Below are positions 6,251-39,418 of a stretch of 64,000 nt of DNA, one piece after another (positions within the stretch are counted from its first letter, which is position 1; every line of letters begins with the position of its first letter). Position numbers and translations under genes: made by a program. Source of the stretch: Bolinopsis microptera. Lineage: Eukaryota > Ctenophora > Tentaculata > Lobata > Bolinopsidae. A model generated the notes under the pieces. The model was given only the letters and a program-made list of their open reading frames with translations, was not told where the DNA came from and ran no database searches. Where the stretch lies: the NCBI RefSeq assembly GCF_026151205.1, contig NC_087072.1, forward strand, positions 15,724,169 to 15,788,168. Reading direction: 5' to 3'.

Positions 6251-6368
6251 TCGCATTCTCTTGCGCCCATTAGCATTGTCTTCCTCTAGGCTTGCCTATT
6301 CTGTATTCAGATTTCTTTTATCAGTTCCCTTTGTTTGTCTATCGATACAGGTTTTTGATTGGGTCGCC

Positions 6369-21300: not shown

Positions 21301-24300
21301 CTCCGCTTTGCTAGCGTAAATTTACGTCAACTGCCTATTTAAATCTGCTTTGTTGTAATTTTTTTGTAACGTTAGAATAGAAATAAAAATAAAGGTATAA
21401 CGTAACTAATTGTTTAATTGCTCAGTTGGTTTTCTTTAGCAATTATCTCTTCTAATTATACCAAGTAAAACTAAGAAATTCTTCTGATCACAAAGTATAA
21501 TGGCTGAATAAATGCTTCAAGAAAATAACTTTTACTAGTTAAATGTTCATAACTTGATAAATTAGAGTATCGTATTATGATAACTTGATAACTCGATATG
21601 TTTATAATCGGGTAAATTAGACGCTTTTAAAACTCAACGCAGATGTCTGCAGAATAAAGCGATTGAGGAAATAAAAATTTTCTTGTCCGAAAATATGCTT
21701 TTTATGATTTATAAACTCATGATGCATGCTTAATACAAGCATTTATAATGTTATAATTCACCAGAAAAATTCAAAATTAAGTATCGATTTTAATCACGCC
21801 TATTTATCCATTTGTAATAAAATGCTCAAATCTTGTAACCCCAGTGAAGACACCATGCTAAGCTCACATTTTAAATATCAAATCAGTGGATTGGGCGATG
21901 AACGGATGAACGTTGCGCAATAAACTTGCATTGGACATTTACAATTTGGGCGTTGTTTAAATACGAAGCAACCGTTAAGAGATACCAACCGTTAAGAGAT
22001 ACCAACTTGGGATTGAGTAAATCAAGCATATCTTTCAGCGTATTTAATGACAAATATCTCAATTTTCTGGTGGCCGTTTTCAAAATGAAAAAAAAAAACC
22101 TTTTAGTTTTAAACAAATTTTCGAAATGATTGACTGTGACTCAAAAGTCACTCGACAGCCTCTCATTGATCTGATTGAGTTTCGCCTGTTTGTCAGCCAT
22201 AGTGCCCCTATTCCTGACAACTCCGATGAAGTGGGCCCATCTCGTGAACTCCCCAGGAAATTGAGCCCAGTTCTGGAGTCCTGTTTCGGCTACGTTGTCT
22301 GATGGATTAGATGGGTTCCTGACCACAGGGCACATCTTCATTGGGAACATGGCACGTGCAGTCTCACTGTAGTTTGTAGACCATTCCAGACGCAGCTCAT
22401 GCTTACGTTGGATCATGTCGGTAAGTCTTTGTAACATTACCTCAGACGTGATGAGCAGGTTAGAGGCTCCTTTCTTTACCATGTCTTCGTGAGCCCCAAT
22501 AACGAGAAGGGACAGTAGCAGACTGCTTGGTCTGTGGAACTGATCCTTCCACAGAATACCATTCCTCCAATGCTTCACCATCCTGATCATATCCTTTATC
22601 TTTATCGGCTGTTTTCTGATGAAGTCGGACTCTTTTTCGCAGGCTGCTGAGAGATACCAGATGTAATCCATTGGTCGCTCTTCTTTTATTGTCTGGTACA
22701 AGTTTTCAGAACTGTAATCATTGCGCCAATCGTAACAAGGAATCAAATCCACGTCCATGTCTCCAACAGTGAATTGGACTGAGTATTGAGTGGTAGAGAT
22801 AAGGGTTAACTTTGGAAGAGATTTTTCTGCTTTTGTTAGCATCATTGCAGCATCCTTAAGCAAACTCGCCAGAGCACTTATGATGCTCGGTAGCCATCTA
22901 GCATGTCCTGTTTTTGGGAGATCATCACTGTACAGAACCAGATCTATATCTGATCTAGATTTAGTGGCAGTATCGTGGCCTAGAGATCCACCCTTGGCTA
23001 CTCTAGTCACACGGAACGGTAATCGGGTCTGGCAAAAATCAATAATCTGTTCAATAATTTCACGGTTGTCCTCGTATTTTACAAGCTCAGGACGAACAAT
23101 GCTTCCTTCAGATAAGTTGACTTGAAGTTTAACCTCCGGTCCGTCTACCGAGAAGTCGGGATGATCACCAACCGATCTCTCGATCATGGAACCCTGTAGT
23201 CTGACATCAAGTGGAGCATCTAGAGATCCTTGAAAGGACTGTTTCAGCTGATTCATGGTTAGATAAGAAGAGGTAGAAGACTGAAATGTATCCAAAATAT
23301 TGGACAGTACAGCATCATTTTCACCACCTCCATCCTGTCGCCGCTCAAACAGATCAGCCAGATTTTCAGGAGGCTGAGATCTGGACGTCTCTCTACCACC
23401 AAAGAACAGAACCGGATCTTCACTGAGGTCTTTCAGCAAATCCTTTAAAAAGTTATTTGAAATTATTATGGATACCCTGAGATTTTCTTCGGATGAAGCG
23501 GATATTACCTTGCCCTCACTCTCAATCTTCACAAGTTGTTTCTTGCTGTCGCATATATCCGTGGACGCCTTGGGATGTTCCTCGGATACAGTGGACTTTA
23601 CCTTACCCTCACTCTGACTGTTCTTGAGTTCCTTCTTGTTATCGGATATCTTTGTGGATCCTTTTGAATGTTCCTTTGATCCAGCAGACTTTACCTTGCC
23701 CTCACTCTCATTCTTCTTGACCTCTTTGATGTCATTGGATGTCTTCACGGAAGGTTTGGGATGTGCCCCTGATACGGCAGACCCTTGATTTCCCTCGCTC
23801 AGAACTTCCATGAATTGTTGTTTGTCATTGGACGCTGATCGAGTAATATTTAGCTTGCGCTGGGTCTGGATCCTTACCAGCTCTTTCTTGTTATTGTTCC
23901 CCATATTCTTGTTACTGTTCCCCATATTCTCTAAGATACTCATTTTTTTAGCTAACTTATAACAGTCACGTCAAAACTACATTGTTACAAAAATATCAAG
24001 GAAGGAATAAGTGATCGGGTTTGGATATATAGGAGCCGTTCACCGTTGCAACGTTGATGAACACAGATGACTTGTAACTGTAAGGAATTACAGATTACAA
24101 AACATAGAACTATAATGTTGGCGATCTTACTATCTCAGTCAAGAACTGATATAACTAAGCGTATGAGAGCTCGGCGTTAAGTATGCACATTGTTAATGTT
24201 TTACAATTTCAAATTCGGCAATATCAAAGATGTTGCTCCACGTAAATCAGATAGGGCAGAAGATGTTTTTACTTTTAAATTACTACTCTAGGAATCGGAC

Positions 24301-27300
24301 AACTTGCCCAACTTTCTCAGATTCCCACACACTGTTGCTTGATAAGATGCTTCAAATCGGATTTCCAATGCGCCCAAATTTTAACTGTCCTGTGGAGATC
24401 GTTGCAGTTCACATGATATTGATAAACGCGCTAGATACCATTTTACATGAACTGATCCATGGTATTATACTGTTATCTTAGATGCATGTGGTGTTACTAA
24501 GAGAGATCGTAGTGGTAAATATGGAATTTTTCACACCTTAAAAAAATTTGTTGAAACTTCCTTGCAACTACTTAAAATAATTTGCCTACTTCCGATAAAT
24601 CAGACGCTGTCGACGTAAAGATTGGGACAAAACGCAAGCTCCATTACGTCAACCCAAAAACATGTGCAGGATCATTTTACAACAATCAGAATTCTAATTT
24701 CGATATTGGTTTTTAACAAGTCTTTTTAAAAACGTGTTGGATCTGAATGACGTCACAACATGTTATGTTACAGATCATTTCAAGTTCCTTATACGCTATG
24801 TCGTGCACCTTGATAAGTTATGTATGTATTCGAGGAGCAACACGCGAAGATTCTCGGCTATTCCTATTAATCATCACAATATAATCCTTCATTATGCGAT
24901 CCAACACAATACTGCACTTCAAGGAAATGATACAATTGCAAAAATAGCACAACAATTGATATGAGATTGATATGAGAGAGGCTACCTTCAAGAAGACTTT
25001 TCCGTGAGAGCCTTATTTCGAGAGGAGGCTACACTTGCTCACATAAGGTCTTAAAGCTAGTGTTATTCTTAGCAAATTGTAACCCTCAACCAACTTGAAT
25101 TAAAACACTAACGTCCTTATCGCATTGACCAAAAAGCGTTATTTGAGTTTTATATCTAGTGTGCCGACTGTGAACCGTACATCATCCTTAATGATATGGT
25201 AATTCTAGTGCAATCATAGCTAAATCATATGCTAGATATATCTACTGCACAGTGTGAAGAATACAATTTAGGCGAGCTTAGACCTGAAATTATAGGTCTC
25301 AATTTAGTCGATAGAAGGGAAACGTAATCGTTCATTATTATAACTTTTGCCTGACCAATTACTGAATACCATTCAATTACTGAATACCATTCAAATTAAT
25401 AATTGGGAGCGGATTTCTAATAAAATGAAGAGCAAGCAAACACGTACTAGAGATACAACTTTACACGTTCAACTACTTTATCAAACTTTAAACTGTGGAC
25501 AAGGCGGTACTGTGAAAATAAGCTTATACCGTACAGATATAAACTGTGTAAAATCGAATATTTGCTATCAATGAAACCTATGACAGTAAACATTAAAGAA
25601 TAGCATGCAACATCACAAAAATTCATAGTGATCTTGACACGCATTACACTAAGGGTGAACCCCACTGATCACTATGCAATAAACAGATAACAAACTCAAA
25701 GGACCAATGCAATCGCGATCATAAAATGCACCGCACGAACAGTTTCCGATTGTTCATTTAAATTTTGTTCATCGTCATTTCCGCTACTAATTCTTGAGAT
25801 TTTGTAAATAAATCGCAAAGGTGGCGAAAAATAGTTTCACAATTTTCGCCACTACAAAGTAAGTAAGTAAACAGAAGAGCATGCTATCTGAAGTAACGAA
25901 GTTGATGTCCGGCGTCACAAATACGCACACTGCACAGAGAACTGAAGAGCTCAGCTGAATATGATAAGAAACCTAGTCCAGCAAAAATATAAAATTGTAT
26001 GTTTATGATTACTTGCCGATCAAGGCAGTTACAGGAATGTACAGCCAGGACTGATCACATGGCCACCCTTATCTTCAGTAACTGGTAAAGATGGCCGTAA
26101 AATTTTCCTAAGTTGGCGTGTTGTTTCTACTGGTATCAATACGGCCGCTTCGATCATAATAGCAAATACCCATGATAATTAGCCGCACCTATAATTAAAC
26201 TTTTTAATTTCATAGCTTAGTACGTTACCTCTATGTTATACATACGTCCAATAAAACGGTTGTAGAACCTCTAACCGGTCTCAATGGAAGGGAACATTTA
26301 TCATTTGTGCAAACGTGGTGAAATCCCTTAGTGCATAAGACAGATGCCTGATGAGTGAAGGTGCGTCGCGTGCATTTTATTTATGTTAAACAATTATATG
26401 GTAGTTTTGAATGAGTTTGGTACGAAACTCATTCAGTTGGGCAGTTGAAGGGTTTTATTTTTATCTTAGCTTTTGTATGTAGCTTTTTTTGTAAAACAGA
26501 AAATGGGCCTTCGAGCAGTATTACCTGGTTTCGTCAATTACTGGTACAAGGACGGTATCCCCCAGCAAGTACCAAGTCTGGCTTTTATTCACATAAAATA
26601 TTGACAGTACACAGTATCATTGTAAAAACGCACTCATTTTAATGCATAAATTGAAAAACTTTCCTAATCTAGTACCATTGTCTCTCAAGAAAACAATTCC
26701 CAAAAGCGCACCATTATTTAATACTAACCCGGATTCTATTCTCACTACACAATGGTCAGAAAAGTATGGTCAACACCCTTACAACAACTCAGTATTTTTT
26801 AAAGGTCCATTATTAGCAATAAACCGATATAATGTTGCAGCAACTTCCCCGCCTAGTCTGTATAAAAACTATGCTCATCGATCAGCAAAATGAAAACATT
26901 GAAGACGAATGGCCTAATTTCATGTTATTTTGTATAACAGGACTAAGAAAATCAAAGCGTAACATAAACCAAAATGCCGATAATAACCTTGTCTCTACAT
27001 CTTAGATTATATGCACACACTTATGCACCACTCAATAAACGTCGCATATCTCATCAATTACACTGCCAACATAGGACATTCTTTTTTATCGCCGCGTATT
27101 TCAAATCAAGTTACAAATTCTACAAATTTTGAAGTGCTCAGTCTTGTTTTACTTTTCTTATCTTTACCTATTAACCATTGGAAAATAAAACTTTAAGTTG
27201 TAAACCTTCATTGCATACTTTACCGGTAGAGTCTAAATTGAATAGTTTGAGATTTCCTTTACATTTTATATTTATGCATGTGCCCCACGGGGATGAATTT

Positions 27301-30300
27301 CTTATTACCATTGATATTTTTTTTGAGTAAACATTGGCTGGTACTACGGGCCAGTCCCCAACAAAAAAAAATTGAAAAATTATACCAAGTAAAACTAAGA
27401 TTTTAATCTGATAAGAAAGGTGGAGCAAATGCTTATTGAAATCTGTAGTAAATATTCATAACTTGATAAAATCGAGTATCGTATGATAGCCTGATAATAT
27501 ATAATATATTTTTCAACCGGATATCGACCGTTTTTAAGATTTAACAAAGATTTATTAACTTGTCGTAATGTCTATAGCATGACGCTATTTATAAAGTATC
27601 GATCCGGTAGTCCAAAGCAGGCTCTAGCTCTCAACATATAACAATCTCATAATGCTTGCTACATACATTTTCATAATTTACCGAAACATGATCATGATAA
27701 TTATAATAAAAAATGGATTATATTTTGTTACCTAAAAGCACAATTTCGCATAAAAAGTAACGCAGGAAATGAGCTTTTCCTTGCAAAGCTTACATTTCAA
27801 TATCATCAAAGCGATGGATTGAACAGTGCAAGTTGCAAAATGGATCTTCAGCATTTGCGCACTTTTTAAACACCGTGCAAACCATCCTATTCAGAAATTG
27901 CTGGTAAGGCATAGATATTCGGTCCAATCAGCCTCTAATAAATCGAGTATAACCTCAGTTTATAATGTCTTAAACCGCGGTGGGAGTTTCGCAAATCAAA
28001 ATGTGAGAAAATATTTATAATTCTGTACATCAGTATTTAAGTCCGTGACTCAAAAATCGCTCGAAAGCCTCTGAACGATTACATTGAGTTTTGCCTGTTT
28101 GGCAGCCATAGTGCCCCTATTCTTGACAACTCCGATGAAGTGGGCCCATCTCGTGAACTCCCCTGGGAACTGTGTCCAATTCTGCAGTCCTGTTTCTGCC
28201 ACGTTATCTGATGGGTTAGATGGGTTCCTGACCACAGGGCACGTCTTCATTGGGAACATGGCACGTGCAGTCTCACTGTAGTTTGTAGACCATTCCAGAC
28301 GCAGCTCATGCTTACGTTGGATCATGTCGGTAAGTCTTTGTAACATTGACTCAGACGTGATGAGCAGGTTAGATGCACCTTTCTTTACCATATCTTCGTG
28401 AGCCCCAATAACGAGAAGGGACAGTAGCAGACTGCTTGGTCTGTGAAATTGATCCTTCCACAGAATGCCATTCCTCCAATGCTTCACCATCCTGATCATA
28501 TCCTTTATCTTTATCGGCTGTTTTCTGATGAAGTCGGACTCTTTTTCGCAGGCTGCTGAGAGATACCAGATGTAATCCATTGGTCGCTCTTCTTTTATTG
28601 TCTGGTACAAGTTTTGAGAACTGTAATCATTGCGCCAATCGTAACAAGGAATCAAATCCACGTCCAAGTCTCCAACAGTGAATTGGACTGAGTACTGAGT
28701 GGTGGAGATGAAGGTTAACTTTGGAAGAGACTTTTCTGCTTTTGTCAGCATCTTTTGTGCATCTTTTAGCAAACTCGCCAAAGCACTGATGATGCTCGGT
28801 AGCCATCTAGCATGTCCCGTTTTTGGGAGATCATCACTGTATAGAACCAGATCTATATCTGATCTAGATTTAGTGGCAGTATCGTGGCCTAGAGATCCAC
28901 CCTTGGCCACTCTAGTCACACGGAACGGTAAACGGGTCTGGCAAAAATCAATAATCTGTTCAATAATTTCACGATAGTCCTCATACCTCACAAGCTCAGG
29001 ACGAACAAGACTTCCTTGACTTCCTTCAGTCAAGTTGACCTGAATTTTCACCTCCGGTCCGTCCACTGAAAAGTCGGGATGATCACCAACTGATTTCTCT
29101 ATTGTGTCAATTGTAGTGCTCGGTAGTCTGGCATTTAGTGGAGCATCTAGAGATCCTTGAAAGGACTGTCTCAGCTGGTTCATGGTTAGATTGGTGGAGG
29201 AAGAAGACTGAAATGTATCTAAAATATTGGACACCACTGCTCCATTTCCACCACTTCCTTCCTGCTTTCGCTCAAACACATCAGCCAAATGTTCAGGAGG
29301 CTGAGACCTGGACGTCTCTCTACCACCACAGAATGGAACTGGATCATCACTCAGATCCCTCAGCAAATCTTTCACAAAGTTATTGGATATTATCATGGAC
29401 GCCTTGAGATGATCTTCAGATCCAACAGACCTTTGCTTGCCCTCGCTCTGGATCTTCATGAGCTCGTCTTTGGTGCTGCTATCTTTCTTGTACTTCAAGT
29501 ATTTGGACTCCCAGCTTCGTTCCAACACAAACCTCTCCCTGTCAGTGGTTTGTCTGGCACTGACTGCTGTTTCTACCTCAGGAGCACTACAACCGTCAAT
29601 AGACGGCTCGAAAAGGACACAACTTCTCATCTCCATTAGGATTTGTATGGTTTTATCGCTGTATTCAGCAGGAAGTGGGGTGGTCATGAGGAGCTCAGCT
29701 CCTTCATTCCACACGATATCAATGCTAGGTCCCAGCACGACAGGAGTGCAGCCCTCAGCTCTCAGAACTACTCTCCATCTCAGTTGACAGATCCACCCAT
29801 AACACCTGTAGTTCACATACATTAATCTGCCCATTGAGCCATCAAGACGAAGAGCTATCTCATACGCTTGGGTGTTGTCACAAAGTGCCTTCCTGTTGAC
29901 GCACAGTTGCCACTTGAAGTTCTGGTCGTCCATCAAGTCGAGAAGTGCGACACCCTCCGCATCCCGATGAGTTCTGGTTTCAATTGCAGGGTTCTTGTAG
30001 ACCACTTCACTTGCGTAAAACAACGTCAGGATCTTCACACCCACCACTATGTGGTCTCCCGACACAAAGTTCTTCAGCTTGTTGGTCTCACAGATAGAGT
30101 CCACTCCTCTTCCAATACCAGAGCCGGGCGGGAACTCTGTTACCAACCTCCTACTCTCCACGTGATAGGGATCCTTCAGCTCTCCCAGGGTAAACTGGCA
30201 CTCCAACATATACCTCCGGTTCGTTTTGTCATCGTTTTTTATAAACATGGAGACTTTGCCACGTGCTTTCTCGTCGTCTCCGTTAGGAAAGAGACGTATT

Positions 30301-33300
30301 TGCCAGTGAGCACCTCCCATGTAGAACTTAGAACTGTGGTAGGACTCCCTGGAACAAAGTAGGTCCAACTTGTCCAGCTTAGCATTTTCATCATGATTAA
30401 CATCCATTGGATTGAGGGTGATGATATCTTGAAACATGGTACTGACTATAGTGCATTCTAGTTCTAAAGAGAGACAATCGTTCCTGACAAATCCCGGCTC
30501 GTTCATTACGTCAACTAACTTGAAGAAGCGCTGACAACCCCAGCACTGGCCGTTCTTTGAGAACACAGCACCCTCCCTGGCAGAAATATTGAGAGATTTG
30601 AGGGGAGCTAGTAAGTTAACGAGGGACAAGTTGAACTGTAGAGCAACTTGTACCCCAGCAGGGTACATCTGGGCCTTGTCAAGAGACAGGTAAACTTTAA
30701 CGTAATCCGCGTTCAGTGCCAACCCCAGCTCCCACTTGTGTCCTCCGAATGTGAAGGGTTCCGAGCAAGCTCCCTCGTAGAGCATCTTGGAGAAGTTGCC
30801 GAGGAGGAAGCGGAATCTGGTGGGTCTGTAGTCGAGGTGAGGTGGTGCCGAGGTGTAGTCATCACATGTCTCCACCCTGTTGAGGCGGAGGAAACAGTGC
30901 ATCTCCTGCAGCTCACGTGACATTGTGGATACTGCGGAGGGGGGACGGGGAGTTTTAGCGGGACTCCTTGTTAGTGCGGGACTCCTTGCTAGTCCGGGAC
31001 TCCTTGCTAGTCCGGGACTCTTTGTTCGTGCGGGACTCTTTGTTCGTTGAACTAGTTCAGAGGTCATCTTTACATTATCCTGGTATATTGATGTCGGTGA
31101 AACATACCGTTAATAAGCAATAAAATTACCAAGATCAATAAAGAGTAACTAAGTTTTAATTGAAACTCTAAATCAAAATGTCAGACAAGTTTCGAGTTTG
31201 AGGTTGAACTAGCACAAGCTTTCTGAAAAAGTAGACAAAACAAAATCTAAAAAGCCTACTAACTGAGAATAGTGGAAATTCAGCAAAACAATCAAGTGCA
31301 ATTTATCAGTAGTACTATCAATAAGAAAAGATTGGCCAGTTACATAATCACACAATCTCTTACGCTGCTTGATTTTGCCAAGCATAAATTGCTCCTACTA
31401 TATCGATTCGCAGCTCAAACGCGATTGTTGAAATTCACTAATACAGTTCTTACTAAACAATTTAAACTTTTAACAAGTGCAACAAATAGGACAGTAGTGT
31501 TGGTGTCACGTGACTCAGTATGGAAAACTGAGCTGAGCATCATACAGGGCCGGGACAATTGTTATTTCTGCCATGCAATCTATTTGTTTTTAGTGCAGGA
31601 CAACACGACACTTGCTACTTTACCATAACTTTCTTTACGACACAATTACAAGTCAAACTTCAAGTCACGTGAATATACAGCCTGGAAAGAATAAGGAGGG
31701 AGAATACTCACCGAAGTGGTAAACAATGAAGTCGTGATGGAGTTTGCCGTTGTATCCTCCGAAGAAGTAGACAGAGTTGTTGTAGGTGAAGGAACCCTGG
31801 CCCATTCTGAAAGGACCCACCTGTTTCAGCTTTCTGAAACTTTTCAGTTCTCGTCCTTCTCCGGTTTCTGAGTGCACAAATCTACTTATTGTACACTTTT
31901 AAATAATAATTATAAGCTAAGCACAAACGAGCAGCTTCCGTTTAATCAACTTTCCTTACTTTCTCACAGTTCTAAATCCCTAGGGATATCAATGTATTGT
32001 AGAAACATTTTCTAGCTCAAAAGAGAAAGGCGTTGCGTATTATAACTAAAGAAGAGCTAGTACATTACTGGAATAGTTTCTAACACCACACCGCCTCTGA
32101 CCGGTTCTTACCTAAGTTCAGGATATAAGGAGCAGTGTTGTAACACTGTGTTGAACCCTTGCTGAGATGAGCTCCTCCAAGTACAACTAGGTTCCTACCC
32201 ACCATCCCAACTGCGGCTAAGTACACTAGCGGTATTGTGTTTCTGTCTGCTTTGTACAGGTTGCTCCTGAAATTAAGGAGATTACAAGTTACTCCTGAAA
32301 TAAAGGAGATAACAGGTTACTCCTGAAATAAAGGAGATAACAGGTTACTCCTGAAATAAAGGAGATAACAGGTTACTCCTGAAAAAAGGAGATTACAAGT
32401 TACTCCTGAAATAAAGGAGATTACAGGTTACTCCTGAAAAAAGGAGATTACAGGTTACTCCTGAAAAAAGGAGATTATAAGTTACTCCTGGAATAAAGGA
32501 GATTACAGGTTACTCCTGAAAAAAGGAGATTACACGTTACTCCTGAAGAGAAGAGAGTACCCTCTCTGAATTCGCCAGGAGGGACTATTCAATCTAATTT
32601 AATAAATTCTACTCAGCATTTGAGAGTTCAACGATACATTTCATTCAAAAAAGACAAAAGTAAGTTTGGTGCCATGTTAACGTAAAATATTTTTGCTCTG
32701 AAAAGAAACTACAGCATGCTATCCTAGCTCCAGACACAAAGACCAATAAAACACATGGAAATTGGAAACAAGTCATGTGACTCAAGTATGGGGCATAGTT
32801 GGAGAAATATTTTCAGCTCACCATCGAACATGTCGAACAATTTTAAAGCGCGAGGTATTCCGTCTTCCCATAACGATTTACATAGTTAAAAAAGGCGAAC
32901 CACGTAAAACAGTCTTGAAGCTTAAGTCTTGACAACATTTTCAGTAGGTAAATCATTAGTCACCCAAATAAAATTGCAAATAAAAATTATCATTCCAGAA
33001 AATTGTAAATTTAAAAACAATAGGGGGGTAGCCAAGGGGAATTTTGGCGGAAAAAAAATCCATTAAGGCATTTCCCAGAATTCGCCAAAATTCCCCTTGG
33101 CTTCCCCCACAATATAAGTAAATTAAGATGCTCAAGACCATCGGGTACAGACTCTCGGTACAGACTCTCACGAATCACAGGGGTCTCCCAAATAAAGTTC
33201 TATCCAAGTTAAAAGAAGCTTTTAGTATTAATAATTAAACATTTCTGCAGAGCAGAATAACTTCTGAATGTCAGTATGTAATTTTTATTATTTGAATTAA

Positions 33301-36300
33301 CGTTAATGCTATTAATATACACATATGAAGTAAATCCTAATTATAATATACATGCTCCCAGACCACAATCAATGAACATGCTGATGAGAAATTACACACT
33401 GTGTACACGTGCACTAAAAATAATGATCCATTCAAACAAATTAGCGTACGTGTTGTAGAGGGCGAAGGACGCAGTAATTATTATAATAATATGGTAGTTA
33501 GATGCACTATGATTAGCCCGATACTAATGGCCGTTTTTCTTGTATATACAATATTGCTATTGTGTAATGGCATACTAAAGCCCTGATCCAAACGATGAGT
33601 ATCTTACTATATATAAAGCGAGACGATATATGTTTATCCGTGCCATTTTACTGACACCACGGCATCAACTTTAACGCTACTTTCCGCGAAAACCGTAAAA
33701 GATATACAACTGAAACTTTTTTGACTGGGCCAAATGCTTTAATGGCCTCCAAATCAGCATGAAAAAATAAAAAATTGGCCAAGAAATAGAAGTTTTAGAG
33801 CCCCAAATTTGGACCCCCAAGTGGTGTCAAAAACGCGAATTAAATAGATAATAATTATTTTAGTCTCTTGAGTCTTGACCCTATTTTAGGGTTATACGGG
33901 TTCCTGCTAGTTATAATAATCCAAGAGAGCGCCCTATAGTTTGTAATTATGTAGTAGACTGGGCGGTGGTAGACTAAATTATACAACAACAGAGACCGGT
34001 TTATATAAGATCCTGATAGTGGAATGTGAATATTTTACCACCACCTGCCCTAACAAATAGAGTTGCATCCCGTGCTATTATTAAACAGGTGGGTAAAAGT
34101 GTTCCTTCATATCAGTATAAGTAATAATAATAACATGATCAACACGATATCTACACGGTTGTCTAAACATGGTTTATCAAAACAGTTTTGGTTTCCACTT
34201 AGTCTGGATCTGTGGTGTCAAAGAAAAAGTACTTCAGCGCTTTGAGCTGAGCCTCAAATACTTGGTGGAATAATATATTACTCGAGAACAAATTATATAG
34301 AAAATTTGAAAATAAATGGCTGCCTCCCAACTCACCAGTGTTTCATATAAAAGTCGTACTCTACAAAAGTAGATTCCTTAATAGTTTCCAGCTCGCTCTG
34401 TATCCAGTACTGTTCGTTTTCTCCCATTATACGTGTCGTGTTTAAACCTCCGAATACTGCGAGATATAGGATATAATGGAGTTCCTAAAATAGAATCCCT
34501 AGAATTTACAAGTAAACATTATATGGTTCATATCAGGGTTATTCTTCAGAATCTAAACACGAGATCCAGTGGAAGAGGCTGAATTGTTCTGGCTAAACTT
34601 GTGTGTCAACCAGTGGAAGAGGCTGATTTATTCTGGCTAAACTTGTGTGTCGAATGGTTTATGTGTTGCAACTGCAATACGTGAAAGTGTGGTGCCTGAT
34701 ATTTCGATTTTCGCTCTGGAATAAGGGCAAAACATATAATAGCAGGGTGGAGCAAGAAGTTGTGCATTAAATTTAATACCTCACTCAAATAATGTAGGTG
34801 TAAATTTAGGCCGGCCCATGCCAATATGTAACCTCACAACATTTTCTTTTGTCCAGCTCAAAGTATTAAATTAAGCCCTAAAAGGCTCGCAGAGTCCTGA
34901 TCCCCTTGATAAAAAGTTTAAAGTTTCCACAATTTTCGAGAGCATGATCACTGATCATGCGCATATGAAAAGAAAACGTACCAGTATATAACTTACCAGT
35001 AACTTATTAGTAACTATATCCGTACATATACTATTATAATAACTTACCAGTTATCTTGTCAGTAATAGGATTCAGCACACACGACGGAGCGTATCGTCCG
35101 TGGTAGATCCGGCCATCTTCAAACTTAAGGAACCTGTCAGTAAACACAGTAAATACTCAGACAGCTCGCTAGTAACTACACGATACTCCTATTCAGAACA
35201 GACAGCAAACTCCTGTCTGCTCTACATTATAATAATATGTACACATTACACAATTGCAATTGTTTAAAAGTCCGACTAATCACAATTTTTCAAACACATC
35301 ACAGTTTCCAAATCTGGCTATTACAACACCATACTTTTAAAAACGTTCGAGATTTAAACGTTGAAGAGAGCACACTAACAATGTGAATTGTGAACAGTAA
35401 CAACAACCCACTGATTCAAGCCAGTGTAAAGGGAAATAACCTGCTATCAGCGTCGTAGAAATGTCTAGTCATCTTACGGTGGCCTATAACTTTCCACACA
35501 TTGGTTTCCACATCATAGGTTTGTATGTTTATAATGGCCACCCCCTTGGAGTCTATACCGCCTATATAGTAGATAGTACTGTTGACCAGCACAGCACAGT
35601 GTCCCATAGAGCTTGTCCTGTAGAAGTAACCAATTCAGTGAAAATAAATATACCCTCATTTTAAGTTTACGTCACCTATTTTTTGAGAGCAAATCGAACG
35701 CATGTCATTTATCGCCTAGTTATTTTGATAATTTTTACCGGGTTCAGTGCAATACCATGCTCATTAATCAAGAATATGCCAAAAATATGAGATAATTCTT
35801 ACTTCTGAATAAAGGTTAAATATTTTAAAGTTGTAAAACAGGTAAATTGATATTCACGGCAGGTATTATTAAAGCTTGAATGTTACCTGGCATAAGCTGG
35901 GTACATTTCTCCCAGGGGGTGCTGTGGGTTGAGTTGGTGCCACTGAGATGAAGTGATGTCATACTTCCACAACTCGTCTGTAATCTGGTAGTTCATCTGT
36001 CCTCCAAACATTATCAGGTAGTTCTGGGGTACGAGCATTTGTGTTAAATAATTATGTTATAATTACTGTTCTTACGAATAAATAATGAACTTTATAAGAA
36101 ACTTGGTCTCACCGCTCACGAAAGATTTGTCAAATCTCAATAAGTTAATGATTGACAGGATTGTCGATAATAATTGGCCGAATGACACCAAACCCACGTG
36201 AACACTAAATGTGCTCTTATCACGTGACACGTCAATGTGTCACGTGATCTTCTGACGTGGTCACCTCGCTTCAAAGAAAACACGGACACGGACTAAAAAA

Positions 36301-39012
36301 GGTGACGTCTTATCAACTGCAAGTCCACTAAAAGGACATAAGTTGCACTAATTATACACTAATTAGACACTAATTAGACACTTCTACAGGTTGTCCAGAT
36401 AAGGGGAGCTGCTCTGACGTGGTCTAATCAAGGCCCCACATTTAGAGCGTAAAGAAATTAAAACTAAAAGATTAAGAATTTGACCATACATTAGAAAAGA
36501 CTAAAAAAGGCCTGTCTTCGACTACGTTGGGTAACGTGGGTAACGCGAACGTGTTCTTGATAATTTATAATGGACACAGTTGTCTAGCAAGTAGTTACAT
36601 TCATTTCCATTTCTATGCTGTGACCTGTATCTAATATTTAGGATTGGAAACAGCATACATTAATGAACTGATACTCAACGAGGGATTTTGTCCAATAACT
36701 CGCTGTACTACGACATTTTCGTCAGAAGGAACTGGTACACAGTTGTTCCTTTACAACCTTACCATGTTAATTATTCAAAATTGTTTTGCCTTATATGGAG
36801 GTTAATGATATGGGGTAATTGAAACTTCAGTGGAAAGTTTACATTAAAAGAGAATAAAATATGAAGTTTTTCACCGAGTGGATTTGTAAAACTCATGCGA
36901 ATGATCTTACCCATATAATATGAATATCCTCTTTCCTCAATAAACTTTATCCCAAAAAGTAGCGAAATCTTGGGAAAATTGGGAGATTAGGTTTGGCCAC
37001 GATACAGTCACTATACGCCATACGGCATATAAACGGTGACCGTATCGTGGCCAAACATAATCTCCAAATTTCAAAAATTTAATTAATATCGGAAGAGAAA
37101 GCCAATAAGAACGTGTAATCAGCTTAAAAAGGAGGTCTACAAATGTACAGCATCCCTTGCAAGTTAGTCCCTTATCCCCGGTATATATTTAAAAACCTTA
37201 AACTAAATGTACCTTGTAAGCAGTGAGAGTGTGACCGTCCCTATCTATTGGTCCACTGTCTGTCCCTTTAGACCACGTGTTAGTTAACAGATCATACTTT
37301 GCCATCTTTACTTTAGTTCCATCCAGGTGGTACCCTCCGAACACCCAGTAGGTATGATCCACTAGAGCTCCACCGAAGCTAGCGCGTCCACCCGGCGATG
37401 AGGCTGCAAGTATGAGTCAGCAGATAGTTGACATGGTTCATGGATAAAAAGAACACGACACATTGTGGTTGCAGCTTTTTTCCTGGCATATGTCATAAAA
37501 TGCCATCATATATTATTTGTCGACATAATATTGATATCAAATTTCTTAATAACATTATAACATGACAGCCACAGTTCCAAAAAACGGCAGATACTGTCGT
37601 TAACACAACACTTGATTATTATACTCACTGCTAGCTGCTCGGTAACTCCACCAATTGACAAGGGTATCAATCTCACAGTTATCTCCAGTAAAACCGTCAG
37701 GACACTCACAACCCCCAACTTTACACTGACCACCATTCTCACATTTACAGGTTGCTGTGTTACACAGATCACCTTGCCAACCAGCATTACAGACACACAC
37801 CCCACCAGTGCACTGACCTTGACCACTGCAGTCGTTGGGACAACCGTCAACTCTGCAAATAGTTATAATTAGGAACTTATGACATCGGGACTATTGTTAG
37901 AAACTCCAGACATAAACTCCAGACATAAACTATTCAGACATACTAGAAGGAAACATAATTAACTAACATAATTAACGTATTCCAAACCTATATGAGATAC
38001 TGAAACCATCATGGTTAACAAACTCGTCAGGTCTGAAAACTAAGTAGATGGAATTGGATGTGGAAACCATTTCTCGGTCCTGCTTTAGTAGTTGTATGTC
38101 ATCGTCTATTAGCAGTCCCCTGATGTGGTAGTGGAGATTAAGTGCCTTAAATTTTGATTGCATTAGGAAGAAAACGTTGTAACAATGCGATATTTGCAAG
38201 GCCAGGATACTCAATTTGTAGAAAATTTGTGAAAATACTAAAATTTCAAACCCAATTCATTGACAAGTAAAGAAAAATAGTTTCATACCCATAAACACCA
38301 ATGGTACGATCAAAGGGAGAGAGACCATCATGAAAATGAAGGAAATCCCAGCAACACTCTGTCATGAATTCATTCACATACAGTCTGATTGTTGTGCCCC
38401 TGAAAATTTACTAGATTAACATATTGATTCAAGTAAAACGTTCCAAGAAAATGGATACAAAGCAGAAAAGTCAAAGAATTTAAAATGAAAATTATGTGCA
38501 TTACACATCTTTATTTAAAACTTAAAATCAAATGAAATGCATAGCTTACACTGGAGATTCTATAAGTACTGAACATTGGGAGAGATTTGAGTATCCTTTC
38601 TTAGAAACACCATCCCACTCATTACTAAGGATGACGCCCTCATTATCAGTTATCCTAAAAAGTAGTTGAATAATTATTAATTTAACTTTAAACCATAGAA
38701 AAATAATCCCTGGTTTATTGAGCCTCTACGTTATAGGGGATATCAAACGATTGTTGATGATCAAAAAGATTGTGCATCTAAAACAATAAACTTTCAAATG
38801 TATCTCTGGGATCTCAGTAAACTGTAAATTAAGAACTACCTTTTTCTCAACTGGCATATGGCACATGATATTTCATAAGACCCAGTGCTATTGGTACATG
38901 CACATTTATCAAGAATGCAAGGTCCAGTGCATGATCTGCAGACTTCAGAGACTACAACTTGAAAGTAAAGTATAAAATATATCCCTGCCGCGCACAACTT
39001 CCATATTCTCAT
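9125..39012 (-). CDS. ATRN-like: Attractin-type transmembrane protein (24 exons placed)
   Basis: A large multi-exon gene encoding a secreted-then-anchored attractin family protein, a cell-surface type I membrane protein. Exons, in order of transcription: 39012-38840, 38654-38550, 38399-38289, 38119-37988, 37852-37629, 37403-37213, 36023-35887, 35617-35441, 35133-35048, 34484-34336, 32266-32112, 31867-31712, 21072-20965, 20407-20108, 19936-19814, 19021-18926, 18696-18563, 18430-18319, 17067-16894, 16691-16597, 16385-16242, 13046-12947, 9598-9462, 9304-9125. Together they give about 1165 residues: signal peptide, CUB, EGF, kelch repeats, PSI-type Cys-rich repeats, laminin-EGF, transmembrane helix and cytoplasmic tail. 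Phases agree across joins except between 35048 and 34484, and an exon seems missing between 16242 and 13046. Vertebrate attractin also has a C-type lectin domain, which I do not find. MEGF8 is the alternative family, but the juxtamembrane region and tail fit attractin better. Confidence 0.85.
9462..9598 (-). CDS. Attractin exon 23: juxtamembrane cytoplasmic segment
   Basis: Encodes KIRYSQYRTQRNLEIQLQER then ALRPFKTHKVLFKD. This corresponds to the attractin region with WKIKQ and ..REQLLRE..ASRPF just inside the membrane. The acceptor is CTTATTTCAG. Confidence 0.75.
9769..9846. repeat. 20-bp tandem repeat in an attractin intron
   Basis: About four copies of CTGCTGCCTACCATCACATA in direct tandem. 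Confidence 0.85.
9886..12814. mobile_element. 2.9-kb foldback element with ~1.15-1.3-kb inverted arms
   Basis: The left arm starts TTAGTACAGACAGATCC (9886) and the right arm ends with its complement, GGATCTGTCTGTACTAA (12814). The match continues inward for over 1.1 kb, to about 11030 on the left and about 11480 on the right, leaving a loop of roughly 450 bp. The right arm is longer because of an extra segment near 11650-11880, which itself has a 41-bp tandem duplication. It lies in the intron between the transmembrane exon and exon 23. Small open frames inside give no recognisable protein. Confidence 0.8.
11691..11774. repeat. 41-bp tandem duplication inside the foldback
   Basis: Two copies of a unit starting GATTTGAATGACAGGATGG differ at two positions. 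They are absent from the opposite arm. Confidence 0.8.
12947..13046 (-). CDS. Attractin exon 22: transmembrane segment
   Basis: Encodes VHQASNQIDLKQ, then a single hydrophobic helix FFIIFSSCIVILLLIFLLAW. It joins in phase (T, then G+CT = Ala) to the K-I-R-Y exon. It resembles the FF..FFSCFL..L segment of attractins. Confidence 0.8.
14484..14632. mobile_element. MITE with G-rich tracts (family K), copy 2
   Basis: The ends are GGGGTCGTATTACGTAATC and GATATGTGAATGACCCC. It shares TAATTTTGACACAATAGCTA and AAAACTGATTACGGAGG with 7610-7810. The G tracts are shorter and interrupted. Confidence 0.65.
15110..15171. repeat. 28-bp tandem duplication
   Basis: CCACTTCTGTGCTAACAAAC followed by CCCAACTTTAC occurs twice in a row. 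Confidence 0.8.
16242..16385 (-). CDS. Attractin exon 21: membrane-proximal ectodomain
   Basis: Forty-eight codons starting VNFMTKLNASITEDVMIEI, with several N-glycosylation sites (NAS, NYT, NTT). It aligns in position to the INF..FINAS..NLNITW stretch of attractins. It is phase 0 at both ends. Confidence 0.7.
16597..16691 (-). CDS. Attractin exon 20: end of laminin-EGF region
   Basis: Encodes YEGDPKKDGGTCFRLLNAGG, the typical close of a laminin-type EGF module (GNP..GGTCY), then a Thr-rich stretch ending SK. Confidence 0.8.
16894..17067 (-). CDS. Attractin exon 19: laminin-type EGF
   Basis: Encodes KNCDSCVDGYYGDATNKGLC, then CKPCHCSEHSEPFC, then SGRCKCNTMGVGGTGCDTC. The Cys spacing is that of laminin-EGF modules, and GVGGTGCDTC parallels the GVKGDQCQLC block of attractins. 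Confidence 0.88.
17882..17955 (-). ncRNA. tRNA-like remnant (possible tRNA-derived SINE head)
   Basis: Reading the - strand gives GCTCCATTGGCAAGATTATC, then CACCTCGCATGCAGAAGG, then GGTTCGAATTC. This resembles the D arm, anticodon arm and B-box/T-loop of a tRNA. The stems pair poorly, so it is at best a pseudo-tRNA or SINE fragment inside an attractin intron. Confidence 0.35.
18251..18312. repeat. 29-bp tandem duplication next to a splice donor
   Basis: AACCATGACACGTGACACTG followed by CAATTATCC occurs twice. It ends six bases from the donor of attractin exon 18. Confidence 0.8.
18319..18430 (-). CDS. Attractin exon 18: laminin-EGF start
   Basis: Encodes ICPEKSWFYESCPLCQCNGH, then SNCTDNVHCDQCQGDTR. 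CPLCQCNGHSNC closely parallels the CPRCQCNGHSTC motif of attractins. It joins to exon 19 through G+GT = Gly. Confidence 0.9.
18563..18696 (-). CDS. Attractin exon 17: PSI repeat
   Basis: Encodes ASCSAHRNCTLCQAEPECGW, then CDDGSGTGTGSCHSG. The C..H..C..C....CGWC spacing is a PSI domain (plexin-semaphorin-integrin). Confidence 0.9.
18926..19021 (-). CDS. Attractin exon 16: PSI repeat segment
   Basis: Encodes GQCLDTSTYHARYPYGQCVK, then WTMTYSSPICP. The acceptor was chosen as GGAGAG/AGGGTC because it matches the phase of exon 15. The 21-bp tandem repeat at 19038-19145 lies just upstream of this acceptor. Confidence 0.75.
19038..19145. repeat. 21-bp tandem repeat upstream of a splice acceptor
   Basis: Five to six copies of TAGTAGATACATATCTTAGTC or close variants. 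They lie about 15 bp into the intron from attractin exon 16. Confidence 0.85.
19814..19936 (-). CDS. Attractin exon 15: PSI repeat
   Basis: Encodes QEVDCSAIRPCSAATSCSKC, then LGNEHMIRSCMWCQLDKLYP. Cys spacing C..C....SCMWC fits a PSI domain. Confidence 0.85.
20108..20407 (-). CDS. Attractin exon 14: two PSI-like Cys-rich units
   Basis: One hundred codons: DCGAVKCDEECVPGDGFDRR, then CHACQTRPDCVWD, later CSEYKLCEHCKGQCVWD. Two CxxC....C.WD patterns indicate two PSI-like units. In vertebrate attractin a C-type lectin domain lies in this part of the protein; no WND/EPN-type lectin motif is seen here. Confidence 0.85.
20815..20957. repeat. 10-bp minisatellite abutting a splice donor
   Basis: About fourteen copies of AAGTAACACT. 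It begins only a few bases into the intron behind the donor of attractin exon 13. Confidence 0.9.
20965..21072 (-). CDS. Attractin exon 13: PSI domain after kelch repeats
   Basis: Encodes VCEDHTNKSRCLSAREDFTE, then CGWNETTSNCFTIPI. PSI-type spacing with CGW. It is reached from the last kelch exon over a 10.6-kb intron that contains the two OAS-family genes. Confidence 0.85.
21450..22140. repeat. 3' flank of OAS-like gene 1, duplicated beside gene 2
   Basis: Shares ATACCAAGTAAAACTAAGA, TTCATAACTTGATAAA, GAGTATCGTAT and other blocks, in the same order and spacing, with 27375-28049. The copies are well diverged, unlike the adjoining coding regions. Confidence 0.65.
22141..23943 (-). CDS. OAS-family nucleotidyltransferase, MATH-less paralog
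   Basis: Single-exon, 600 residues. Residues 1-165 are a polar, charged region in which a 31-residue unit repeats four times: SEG at residues 49, 80, 111 and 142, each followed by a Ser/Lys-rich stretch with E-H/N and I-S/D-N motifs. Residues 290-600 are a 2'-5'-oligoadenylate synthetase-type domain: KGGSLGHDTATKSRSDIDLV (Gly-Gly-Ser 318-320, Asp332, Asp334), a third acidic site in GDMDVDLIPCYD (Asp399), the helix IKIKDMIRMVKHW, and the OAS-type NPSNPSDNVAETG near the C-terminus. All three metal-binding acids are present, so activity is plausible. OAS enzymes make 2'-5' oligoadenylates from ATP; here product and trigger are unknown. It is almost identical to the C-terminal part of the 28050-31067 gene and shares its strand and intron. 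cGAS-type is less likely, given the OAS C-terminal motifs. Confidence 0.88.
   Translation of the reverse strand: MSILENMGNSNKNMGNNNKKELVRIQTQRKLNITRSASNDKQQFMEVLSEGNQGSAVSGAHPKPSVKTSNDIKEVKKNESEGKVKSAGSKEHSKGSTKISDNKKELKNSQSEGKVKSTVSEEHPKASTDICDSKKQLVKIESEGKVISASSEENLRVSIIISNNFLKDLLKDLSEDPVLFFGGRETSRSQPPENLADLFERRQDGGGENDAVLSNILDTFQSSTSSYLTMNQLKQSFQGSLDAPLDVRLQGSMIERSVGDHPDFSVDGPEVKLQVNLSEGSIVRPELVKYEDNREIIEQIIDFCQTRLPFRVTRVAKGGSLGHDTATKSRSDIDLVLYSDDLPKTGHARWLPSIISALASLLKDAAMMLTKAEKSLPKLTLISTTQYSVQFTVGDMDVDLIPCYDWRNDYSSENLYQTIKEERPMDYIWYLSAACEKESDFIRKQPIKIKDMIRMVKHWRNGILWKDQFHRPSSLLLSLLVIGAHEDMVKKGASNLLITSEVMLQRLTDMIQRKHELRLEWSTNYSETARAMFPMKMCPVVRNPSNPSDNVAETGLQNWAQFPGEFTRWAHFIGVVRNRGTMADKQAKLNQINERLSSDF
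23397..23800. repeat. 93-bp in-frame coding minisatellite in OAS-like gene 1
   Basis: The 31-residue spacing of the SEG motifs corresponds to a 93-bp DNA unit, about four copies with moderate divergence. The paralog at 28050-31067 has only one unit (SEG at residue 541). Confidence 0.75.
23944..27374. other. Spacer between the two OAS-like genes (intron of attractin)
   Basis: A+T-rich. I see no exon, tRNA or clear transposon. The first few hundred bases should hold the promoter of OAS-like gene 1. Confidence 0.4.
27375..28049. repeat. 3' flank of MATH-OAS gene, diverged duplicate of 21450-22140
   Basis: Common blocks include ATACCAAGTAAAACTAAGA near 27384 and TTCATAACTTGATAAAATCG near 27457. 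This shows that the duplication unit included at least 0.7 kb of 3' flank. Confidence 0.65.
28050..31067 (-). CDS. MATH-MATH-OAS fusion protein
   Basis: Single-exon, 1005 residues. Residues 1-45 are a run of SPARTKSP/LARSP-type repeats. Residues about 83-207 are a MATH/TRAF-like domain: FRFLLGNFSK..., FTFGGHKWELGL, YLSLD, then GCQRFFKLVDV and GFVRNDCLSLELE. Residues about 234-350 are a second MATH domain: KFYMGGAHWQIRLFPNG, VSMFI, CQFTLGEL. Residues about 372-488 look like a third, degenerate beta-rich copy. A linker (490-690) leads to an OAS-type nucleotidyltransferase with GGSLGHDTATKSRSDIDLV (Gly723-Gly724-Ser725, Asp737, Asp739), GDLDVDLIPCYD (Asp804), IKIKDMIRMVKHW and NPSNPSDNVAETG. All three catalytic acids are kept. 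MATH domains bind peptides in TRAF, SPOP and USP7 proteins, so the fusion could target an RNA- or stress-triggered nucleotide synthetase to a partner; this is inference. An intron-free 3-kb frame in an intron-rich locus suggests retroposition or intron loss. Confidence 0.88.
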   Translation of the reverse strand: MTSELVQRTKSPARTKSPGLARSPGLARSPALTRSPAKTPRPPSAVSTMSRELQEMHCFLRLNRVETCDDYTSAPPHLDYRPTRFRFLLGNFSKMLYEGACSEPFTFGGHKWELGLALNADYVKVYLSLDKAQMYPAGVQVALQFNLSLVNLLAPLKSLNISAREGAVFSKNGQCWGCQRFFKLVDVMNEPGFVRNDCLSLELECTIVSTMFQDIITLNPMDVNHDENAKLDKLDLLCSRESYHSSKFYMGGAHWQIRLFPNGDDEKARGKVSMFIKNDDKTNRRYMLECQFTLGELKDPYHVESRRLVTEFPPGSGIGRGVDSICETNKLKNFVSGDHIVVGVKILTLFYASEVVYKNPAIETRTHRDAEGVALLDLMDDQNFKWQLCVNRKALCDNTQAYEIALRLDGSMGRLMYVNYRCYGWICQLRWRVVLRAEGCTPVVLGPSIDIVWNEGAELLMTTPLPAEYSDKTIQILMEMRSCVLFEPSIDGCSAPEVETAVSARQTTDRERFVLERSWESKYLKYKKDSSTKDELMKIQSEGKQRSVGSEDHLKASMIISNNFVKDLLRDLSDDPVPFCGGRETSRSQPPEHLADVFERKQEGSGGNGAVVSNILDTFQSSSSTNLTMNQLRQSFQGSLDAPLNARLPSTTIDTIEKSVGDHPDFSVDGPEVKIQVNLTEGSQGSLVRPELVRYEDYREIIEQIIDFCQTRLPFRVTRVAKGGSLGHDTATKSRSDIDLVLYSDDLPKTGHARWLPSIISALASLLKDAQKMLTKAEKSLPKLTFISTTQYSVQFTVGDLDVDLIPCYDWRNDYSSQNLYQTIKEERPMDYIWYLSAACEKESDFIRKQPIKIKDMIRMVKHWRNGILWKDQFHRPSSLLLSLLVIGAHEDMVKKGASNLLITSESMLQRLTDMIQRKHELRLEWSTNYSETARAMFPMKTCPVVRNPSNPSDNVAETGLQNWTQFPGEFTRWAHFIGVVKNRGTMAAKQAKLNVIVQRLSSDF
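31712..31867 (-). CDS. Attractin exon 12: last kelch blade
   Basis: Encodes TGEGRELKSFRKLKQVGPFR, then MGQGSFTYNNSVYFFGGYNG. The G-x-G-S...YFFGGYNG pattern is a kelch motif. The donor G/GTGAGT leads to the PSI exon at 21072 as HFG-VCED. Confidence 0.85.
32112..32266 (-). CDS. Attractin exon 11: kelch blade
   Basis: Encodes SNLYKADRNTIPLVYLAAVG, then MVGRNLVVLGGAHLSKGS, then QCYNTAPYILNL. It parallels the MVVFGG...HGAKCFSSDFMAYDI block of attractins. Confidence 0.88.
32259..32545. repeat. 27-28 bp minisatellite containing copies of a splice acceptor
   Basis: About ten tandem copies of TTACTCCTGAAATAAAGGAG plus ATTACAGG or variants. The array starts inside attractin exon 11. On the - strand each unit reads TTTATTTCAGGAGTAACC, matching the real junction TTAATTTCAG/GAGCAACC. 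Confidence 0.9.
33023..33108. repeat. Long hairpin, ~26-bp arms
   Basis: GTAGCCAAGGGGAATTTTGG is mirrored by CGCCAAAATTCCCCTTGGCT across a spacer of about 33 bp. It may be a MITE remnant in an attractin intron. Confidence 0.75.
33602..33910 (+). mobile_element. Helitron-like non-autonomous element, 309 bp
   Basis: The 5' end is TCTTACTATATATAAAGCGA, preceded by host A. The 3' end is GGGTTCCTGCTAG, followed by host T. A short hairpin, ACCCTATTTTAGGGT, lies upstream of the CTAG. A/TC...CTAG/T with a subterminal hairpin and no target duplication is the Helitron pattern. A diverged and enlarged copy is at 59402-61837 in the opposite orientation. Confidence 0.75.
34336..34484 (-). CDS. Attractin exon 10: kelch blade
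   Basis: Encodes ELHYILYLAVFGGLNTTRIM, then GENEQYWIQSELETIKES and FVEYDFYMKH. A kelch blade with the AVFGGLN turn. It joins to exon 11 in phase (TG+G = Trp). The incoming phase does not fit exon 9. Confidence 0.82.
34564..34656. repeat. Tandem duplication, ~47 bp
   Basis: AGTGGAAGAGGCTGA(A/T)TT followed by TTCTGGCTAAACTTGTGTGT occurs twice in the intron. Confidence 0.8.
35048..35133 (-). CDS. Attractin exon 9: kelch segment
   Basis: Encodes FLKFEDGRIYHGRYAPSCVL, then NPITDKIT. It joins exon 8 through AG+G = Arg. Its donor ACTG/GTAAGT leaves one base, which does not fit exon 10, so a small exon may be missing between them. Confidence 0.8.
35441..35617 (-). CDS. Attractin exon 8: kelch blade
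   Basis: Encodes TSSMGHCAVLVNSTIYYIGG, then IDSKGVAIINIQTYDVETN and VWKVIGH. A classic kelch motif (GH..V..NS.YYIGG....YDVETN.W). Confidence 0.9.
35887..36023 (-). CDS. Attractin exon 7: kelch blade
   Basis: Encodes NYLIMFGGQMNYQITDELWK, then YDITSSQWHQLNPQHPLGE. Kelch blade, phase 0 after exon 6. Confidence 0.9.
36208..36247. repeat. Small palindrome with CACGTG boxes
   Basis: ATCACGTGACAC-GTCAAT-GTGTCACGTGAT is a perfect 12-bp stem. It sits in an attractin intron. Confidence 0.7.
36982..37064. repeat. Hairpin element with 30-bp arms
   Basis: GTTTGGCCACGATACAGTCAC is complementary to GTGACCGTATCGTGGCCAAAC around a 23-bp loop. The outer GGAGATTA/TAATCTCC extends the arms to 30 bp with two mismatches. 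Confidence 0.8.
37213..37403 (-). CDS. Attractin exon 6: first kelch blade
   Basis: Encodes SSPGGRASFGGALVDHTYWV, then FGGYHLDGTKVKMAKYDLL and NTWSKGTDSG. Kelch blade. It joins the EGF exon through A+CC = Thr. Confidence 0.9.
37629..37852 (-). CDS. Attractin exon 5: two EGF-like modules
   Basis: Encodes VDGCPNDCSGQGQCTGGVCV, then CNAGWQGDLCNTATCKCENG and CECPDGFTGDNCEIDTL. Two EGF modules follow the CUB domain, as in attractin and MEGF8. Confidence 0.92.
37988..38119 (-). CDS. Attractin exon 4: end of CUB domain
   Basis: Encodes GLLIDDDIQLLKQDREMVST, then SNSIYLVFRPDEFVNHDGF, SISY. This is the SG..L.F.SD....GF...Y end of a CUB domain. The acceptor CACATCAG/GGG gives the phase needed by exon 3. 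Confidence 0.85.
38289..38399 (-). CDS. Attractin exon 3: middle of CUB domain
   Basis: Encodes GTTIRLYVNEFMTECCWDFL, then HFHDGLSPFDRTIGVYG. ECCWDFLHFHDG is the CUB C-x-D-x-L-x-V-x-D-G signature. Confidence 0.9.
38550..38654 (-). CDS. Attractin exon 2: start of CUB domain
   Basis: Encodes ITDNEGVILSNEWDGVSKKG, then YSNLSQCSVLIESP. It fits a CUB opening (G.I.S......Y....C.W.I). The donor CCAGT/GTAAGC matches the phase of exon 3. Confidence 0.85.
38840..39012 (-). CDS. Attractin exon 1: signal peptide and Cys-rich start
   Basis: The ATG at 39012 has an in-frame TAG just 6 bases upstream. It encodes MRIWKLCAAGIYFILYFQVV, a clear signal peptide, then a Cys-rich stretch with CRSCTGPC and CAIC. 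It ends in AG, completed by exon 2 (AG+G = Arg). Confidence 0.85.
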
Positions 39013-39418
39013 GACCTACATCTGAGAAGTAATGAAGATTAGAACTGAATCAATAAAATCAAATCAAAATACTAAAAGAAGAATCACTTTACAAATCTTC
39101 TAAGAACAAAACCAAAAAATAATCGTTACGTTAATTGCTAGTAGATAAGGATGTCTGATGAAGTGTGCTGTCATTTTAATCTCCTACTTCGTAACTTGGC
39201 TATCATACAAAGAAACATTACTGCCCTTGTCCTTCCATGTGATACCTAGCACCATAATGCATATGCAATATTCTAGTATATGTCCAGTCCAAACCATTTT
39301 TTGTTTCAAGCCTTTGTCAGTGTACAAGTTTTGGATCCTTTATAGAGCAGAACTAATTAATTAATTGTTCATTATCGCAAAACCTATCATTTGGGCTAGA
39401 TAAAGGAAGATACTGGAA

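Follow-up and report, generated by a model that had tools for sequence, protein, structure and literature searches.

Gene A and its domain order

A stretch of 64,000 nucleotides from the ctenophore Bolinopsis microptera (NCBI RefSeq assembly GCF_026151205.1, contig NC_087072.1, here C1:15724169-15788168, in a genome of 264,652,675 bases and 232 contigs), referred to below as the window, carries a gene in which two MATH domains are joined through a linker to a nucleotidyltransferase core of the 2'-5'-oligoadenylate synthase (OAS) type. This gene, gene A, occupies 28050..31067 on the minus strand as a single open reading frame of 1005 codons without interruption, with its first ATG ending at 31067 on the plus scale and its stop codon at 28050-28052. 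The plus strand of the same interval has stops throughout. In the real frame, no stop falls within the first 535 codons, against a mean of 26.5 and a minimum of 12 in 2000 mononucleotide shuffles. The overall order read earlier in the original prediction, namely MATH, MATH, linker and an intact OAS core, is borne out by Pfam and by the reading frame, since all of it lies in one stop-free frame. By family, A is, as judged from its sequence, an OAS-superfamily enzyme carrying MATH domains.

A Pfam search with all 1005 residues of A at E<=10 listed five families, among which RING, zinc-finger, B-box and BTB were absent; Mab-21 (PF03281) was likewise unmatched at E<=10, by the whole protein as well as by its OAS piece. 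The N-terminus begins with Ser-Pro repeats at residues about 8-38 (30954..31046, minus), to which DUF1388 matches at E 0.00077 with 19.7 bits, below the curated cut-off of 25.9. The tract bears a likeness to KSP repeats, and its Ser-Pro units could serve as candidate phosphorylation sites.

The MATH region

MATH domain 1 covers residues 90-204 (30456..30800, minus) and MATH domain 2 residues 239-346 (30030..30353, minus). Both are matched by MATH_2 (PF22486) above the Pfam cut-off, domain 1 at E 1.4e-16 as an isolated piece and domain 2 (residues about 239-346) at E 1.5e-13. A small profile made from the MATH domains of SPOP, USP7 and TRAF2 was also applied, with 500 shuffles made per tested segment and a subset of them scored. 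Domain 1 reached 10.4 bits, a score equalled by 0 of 417 scored shuffles, and domain 2 reached 13.9 bits, equalled by 0 of 436. When the MATH region by itself was compared with the PDB, two rows came back, both of them chance-like (an antibody at E 0.36 and an amylase at E 0.44); Pfam and the small profile are thus the basis of the MATH call.

The original prediction had placed two MATH domains at residues 83-207 and 234-350, where the profile matches now locate them, and a probable third at residues 372-488 (29604..29954, minus), which fared less well. At E<=10, Pfam offers no family for residues 360-500. Against the small profile, residues 359-496 reach 0.8 bits, a score equalled or exceeded by 10 of 336 scored shuffles, and 1.6 bits when the profile is extended with domains 1 and 2 of A, equalled or exceeded by 8 of 340. 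In pairwise alignments with 1000 shuffles each, the score between domains 1 and 2 was reached by 9 shuffles, that between domain 1 and the third segment by 112, and that between domain 2 and the third segment by 998. Because of the missing Pfam match and the borderline profile scores, together with the weak pairwise scores, the evidence falls short of establishing a third MATH domain; a diverged MATH fold at 372-488 is possible.

The OAS core

The OAS-type core extends over residues 690-1005 (28053..29000, minus). Within it, NTP_transf_2 matches residues 702-749 (28821-28964) and OAS1_C (PF10421) residues 839-987 (28107-28553), both on the minus strand and both above their curated cut-offs. 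The best PDB rows for A are OAS2 (E 1.8e-18) and OAS1 (E 1.6e-15); OASL follows far behind at E 0.00045 and the bacterial CdnC at E 0.0046. A sub-threshold SMODS match (E 0.037) fits a wider kinship with the CD-NTases. The earlier proposal that residues 690-1005 form a complete OAS catalytic domain is therefore upheld by two matches above cut-off and by the order of the PDB rows, with OAS1_C rather than Mab-21 as the family found.

The catalytic residues that had been pointed out, a GGS motif and three acidic residues, align with those of pig OAS1 and human OAS2. The motif is formed by G723, G724 and S725 (28893-28901, minus), and the acidic residues are D737 (28857-28859), D739 (28851-28853) and D804 (28656-28658), all on the minus strand. 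These positions, as well as R848 and K853, are identical in all four aligned rows (A, its paralogue B, pig OAS1 and human OAS2); given how alike A and B are, the four rows are not independent. R848 and K853 sit in the block R-x4-K-x-K-x2-I-R-x-V-K-H-W of A. The residue preceding GGS is Lys in both A and pig OAS1 and Arg in OAS2. The Lys before GGS, R848, K853 and a Lys of the glycine loop are positions taken here to be contacts of OAS1 with double-stranded RNA (dsRNA).

The linker, paralogue B and the history of the pair

The linker of A comprises residues 489-690 (28998..29603, minus) and is shared from residue 532 onward with a second gene of the window. This gene, gene B, is a MATH-less paralogue at 22141..23970 on the minus strand, a stop-to-stop frame of 609 residues with its first Met at residue 10, and consists of an OAS core and a linker; Pfam finds no MATH match in the frame. 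Residues 532-1005 of A align with B at 412 identical columns of 474 (87%). The linker of B is enlarged: its residues 48-171 comprise four copies of a 31-residue unit that occurs once in the linker of A, at residues 531-561. A SPOP-binding-like motif of the linker (FQSSS in A, FQSST in B) was considered and set aside as being at chance level, as 35% and 32% of 500 shuffles contained at least as many.

The rates of nonsynonymous (dN) and synonymous (dS) substitution between A and B were estimated by NG86. The OAS core gave dN 0.026 and dS 0.22 over 315 codons (dN/dS about 0.12), the linker gave dN 0.15 and dS 0.54 over 153 codons, and YN00 pointed in the same direction. With dN well below dS, the linker and the OAS core are therefore translated and under purifying selection. 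The dS of the OAS cores (0.22; 22141-23531 against 28050-29458) is lower than that of the linkers (0.54), and a shared 3' flank piece shows 31% mismatch or gap; given the lower dS of the core, the catalytic part may have undergone gene conversion.

The 3' flank piece of A (27378..27551, minus) is 69% identical over 193 columns to a segment of the B flank at 21454-21644. It lies 499-672 bases past the stop codon of A and 497-687 bases past that of B. Because this piece is shared at a near-equal offset from the two stop codons, a tandem DNA duplication appears to explain the A/B pair best, and independent retroposition of A and B is disfavoured; an intronless ancestor may itself have arisen earlier by retroposition. 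Between B and A no MATH remnant was seen (best tblastn E 0.7). In the simplest history, A would be the older form, and B would have arisen by tandem duplication with its 5' break inside the linker. Alternatively, it is possible that the MATH domains were gained by A.

Genomic setting

Genes A and B lie within the approximate extent of an attractin-type gene with kelch, PSI and laminin/attractin-EGF exons (16871..39015, minus), several exons of which were read by eye. A PSI frame (18449-18715) and two laminin/attractin EGF frames (18281-18445 and 16871-17092) match Pfam above cut-off, while an attractin-type, kelch-like propeller frame (31668-31898) and a second PSI frame (19803-20045) fall below it. 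Assigned by eye are the frames 32083-32316 and 20094-20459, which have no meaningful family match, and additional kelch and EGF frames reaching to about 39 kb; all of these are on the minus strand. A and B sit on the host strand, between the kelch-like frame at 31668-31898 and the Cys-rich and PSI frames below about 20.4 kb, and both are probably contained in one host-gene intron. Such a nested position is not odd for ctenophores, because 2357 nested intronic genes, many of them parallel to their hosts, are reported in Hormiphora (PMC8527503).

Elsewhere in the window, two minus-strand frames match RVT_1, 43448-46870 at E 6.6e-37 and 51246-52628 at E 5.5e-23, the former also with endonuclease-like and PHD-like matches below cut-off; they are perhaps non-LTR elements. 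A near-identical tandem repeat with a period of about 537 bases and copies at least 99.6% identical occupies 59683-61800. An open frame of 339 residues on the plus strand (6219-7238) is calmodulin-like, with four EF-hand matches and a Ser-rich N-terminal part. An inverted repeat pairs 9886-10824 with 11885-12814 at 98.6% identity over 939 columns and is perhaps a recent transposon or palindrome. An Rfam scan of the window gave no match.

Relatives and possible partners elsewhere in the genome

Domain searches of the 264.65-Mb genome were made in six frames with introns ignored, so that split genes may be missed. OAS1_C has two matches at E<=10, which are A and B. MATH_2 has seven at E<=0.1, five of them above cut-off: the two domains of A (60.7 and 50.8 bits for domains 1 and 2, with a cut-off of 32), three pieces on contig C5 and two on contig C2, the C5 locus being read here as SPOP and the C2 locus as TRIM37-like. 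Among the five other MATH_2 loci compared, the C2 locus is closest to both domains of A, at 40% over 37 columns for domain 1 and 23% over 52 columns for domain 2, placing the MATH domains of A nearer to the TRIM37-like locus than to the SPOP-like one. None of STING_LBD, Mab-21 and TRAF-mep_MATH was matched in the genome, and the control genomes were silent as well, so that this silence does not demonstrate absence.

The nuclease domain shared by RNase L and IRE1 (Ribonuc_2-5A) has 13 genome matches at E<=0.1, 11 of them above cut-off. Ten of the 13 are gathered on C11 at 1.44-2.21 Mb (C11:1439035-2212773), and the others are at C5:21916831-21917238, C2:6649041-6649442 and C3:6493223-6493459. 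Six of these loci were fetched (L021-L026), and all six contain R-N-x-x-x-H, a pattern that in RNase L includes the catalytic Arg and His. Pfam scans of the frames at L021, L022, L023 and L026 found the kinase and nuclease domains in one frame at L021, L022 and L026 and in two frames at L023. Soluble kinase-KEN proteins are thus apparently expanded in the genome.

Outside this genome, the OAS alignment was compared with viral contigs, where 40 stretches fitted the pattern and none was a relative, and whole A was compared with a collection of genome contigs, with 10 stretches and again no relative. A viral-contig candidate (28% over residues 836-936, E 4e-4 within the candidates) was rejected, its locus reading by eye as a phage region.

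A spliced-leader-like sequence, AATTAATTTGAGGTA, was found 10 times in the genome, against one match for the reversed control. Eight loci were returned, of which three are leader-like (L018 on C12; L019 and L020 on C13) and five are not clearly so (L013-L017). An example of the leader-like context is TTTTAATACTTTCAACACTACTATATAACAATTAATTTGAG followed by GT. At L019 and L020 (C13 near 12.81-12.83 Mb) the leader-like genes stand among 5S ribosomal RNA genes, with eight Rfam matches together. The leader found here resembles that of Hormiphora, which ends in AAATTAATTTGAG (PMC8527503), and with its 5S neighbours it points to a ctenophore. A search for COX1 gave no match.

Comparison with known systems

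Vertebrate OAS1-3 consist of one to three OAS units. A shares with OAS1 and OAS2 the two-part core, the GGS motif, the three acidic residues and the Arg/Lys-rich block before VKHW; it differs from them in the tandem MATH domains and the linker of about 200 residues that precede the core. With TRIM37-type proteins and SPOP it shares the MATH family. The TRIM37-like and SPOP genomic matches, however, are split into exon-like pieces, whereas A is one frame and has no RING, B-box or BTB match. A TRAF/SPOP-like complex, suggested in the original prediction, may be the setting in which A works.

Among the literature searched, which was mostly open access, the nearest published parallel to A is an invertebrate oligoadenylate synthase fused to TRADD-N, with retrotransposition proposed as a source of such fusions (PMC8195603). 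In both cases OAS is joined to a domain of TRAF/TRADD signalling, but the fused part there is TRADD-N, the partner of MATH in the TRADD-TRAF2 complex, while in A it is MATH itself. This was the single paper found with both "MATH domain" and "oligoadenylate", and the parts of its text available describe no MATH-OAS fusion. Within the literature searched, then, the domain order of A is undescribed, in agreement with what had been supposed. The main text of a study on immune genes of Mnemiopsis mentions none of OAS, MATH, TRAF, oligoadenylate or STING (PMC11797021). The fusion may be present, unremarked, in other ctenophore gene sets.

A also resembles the cGAS-like receptors (cGLRs), a group of nucleotide-second-messenger synthases; 87% of them stand alone, and in a minority ankyrin or TPR repeats serve as added interaction domains (PMC9980059). 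The cGLRs, in contrast, represent the Mab-21 branch, while A matches OAS1_C and not Mab-21. The OAS superfamily has been placed within the clade C CD-NTases (PMC10732462). Since OAS1 and RNase L homologues are named in the poly(I:C) response of the sea anemone Nematostella (PMC8476169), an OAS response outside vertebrates is not itself new.

Proposed function and alternative explanations

With fair confidence, A is taken to be an OAS-family synthase, likely activated by dsRNA and making 2'-5' oligoadenylates, that is placed by a tandem MATH docking module. As known from the family, dsRNA would switch on the OAS core in the cytosol, and the core would then make 2'-5'-linked oligoadenylates or a close relative. 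The two MATH domains would recognise and bind short peptide motifs in partner proteins, thereby placing or regulating the synthase. B, with the enzyme and an enlarged linker and no MATH domain, would be the unaddressed form; because it keeps the OAS core without MATH, the animal would have both addressed and unaddressed forms of the enzyme. The soluble kinase-KEN proteins would be candidate readers of the product of A and B.

Several observations weigh against this proposal. The glycine loop of A reads LGHDT where that of pig OAS1 reads SGKGT, and the glycine-loop Lys is not kept; the RNA dependence of A is therefore not assured. The MATH-OAS fusion was seen in one genome only, and a search of this genome with whole A at E<=0.001 finds just A and the OAS half of B, which leaves no relative of the MATH half for a measurement of selection. 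RNase L binds 2'-5' oligoadenylates through its ankyrin part, and Pfam found no ankyrin repeats in the scanned kinase-KEN frames of L021, L022, L023 and L026. A larger proposal, that ctenophores possess their own OAS pathway, in which MATH-OAS and free OAS make 2'-5' oligoadenylates read by the expanded, ankyrin-less soluble kinase-KEN ribonucleases, in a differently wired nucleotide-RNase antiviral circuit at the base of the animal tree, is held as speculative and rather doubtful.

A might make another nucleotide signal, such as a cyclic or 3'-5' product, in place of the linear 2'-5' oligoadenylate. The weak CdnC row and the sub-threshold SMODS match lean this way, as does the placement of the OAS superfamily within the bacterial clade C CD-NTases (PMC10732462). 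The OAS2 and OAS1 rows, however, are 12-15 orders of magnitude better than that of CdnC, and OAS1_C is above its cut-off, which makes a different product unlikely, though still to be reckoned with.

It has also to be asked whether one frame yields two products, the OAS being expressed alone from a start or a trans-splice acceptor in the linker and the MATH part being separate or decaying. B, which has no MATH match and starts in linker-derived repeats, would suit such an arrangement. As trans-spliced leaders are common on Hormiphora mRNAs (PMC8527503), an internal 5' end in A is conceivable. The 535 codons kept open where shuffles average 26.5 stops, and the two MATH domains above cut-off without a frameshift, nevertheless render this explanation improbable.

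About equally improbable is a repurposed core, acting in RNA binding or as a scaffold in the manner of OASL, with the MATH domains as the working part. In vertebrates, OASL is a relative of OAS that carries additional protein-interaction domains and lacks synthase activity, and the glycine-loop residues in which A departs from OAS1 would be in keeping with such a fate. Against it, both A and B retain GGS and the three acidic residues, the dN/dS of the OAS core is as low as about 0.12, and the OASL row is far weaker than those of OAS1 and OAS2. Finally, an assembly or frame artefact joining a MATH gene to an OAS gene, to which the restriction of the fusion to one assembly might hint, is very improbable given a continuous reading frame on a contig of more than 15.7 Mb with the host-gene frames in order on both flanks.

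Meaning of the fusion

Two groups are candidates for the sister lineage of all other animals, and ctenophores are one of them. If the proposal of a MATH-placed synthase is true, an OAS second-messenger synthase is joined to a MATH docking fold in a comb jelly, and the A/B pair, with and without MATH, would offer a way to test what docking does to an OAS enzyme. Considered alongside the published TRADD-N fusions, it would then hint at repeated links between TRAF-type docking and OAS signalling.

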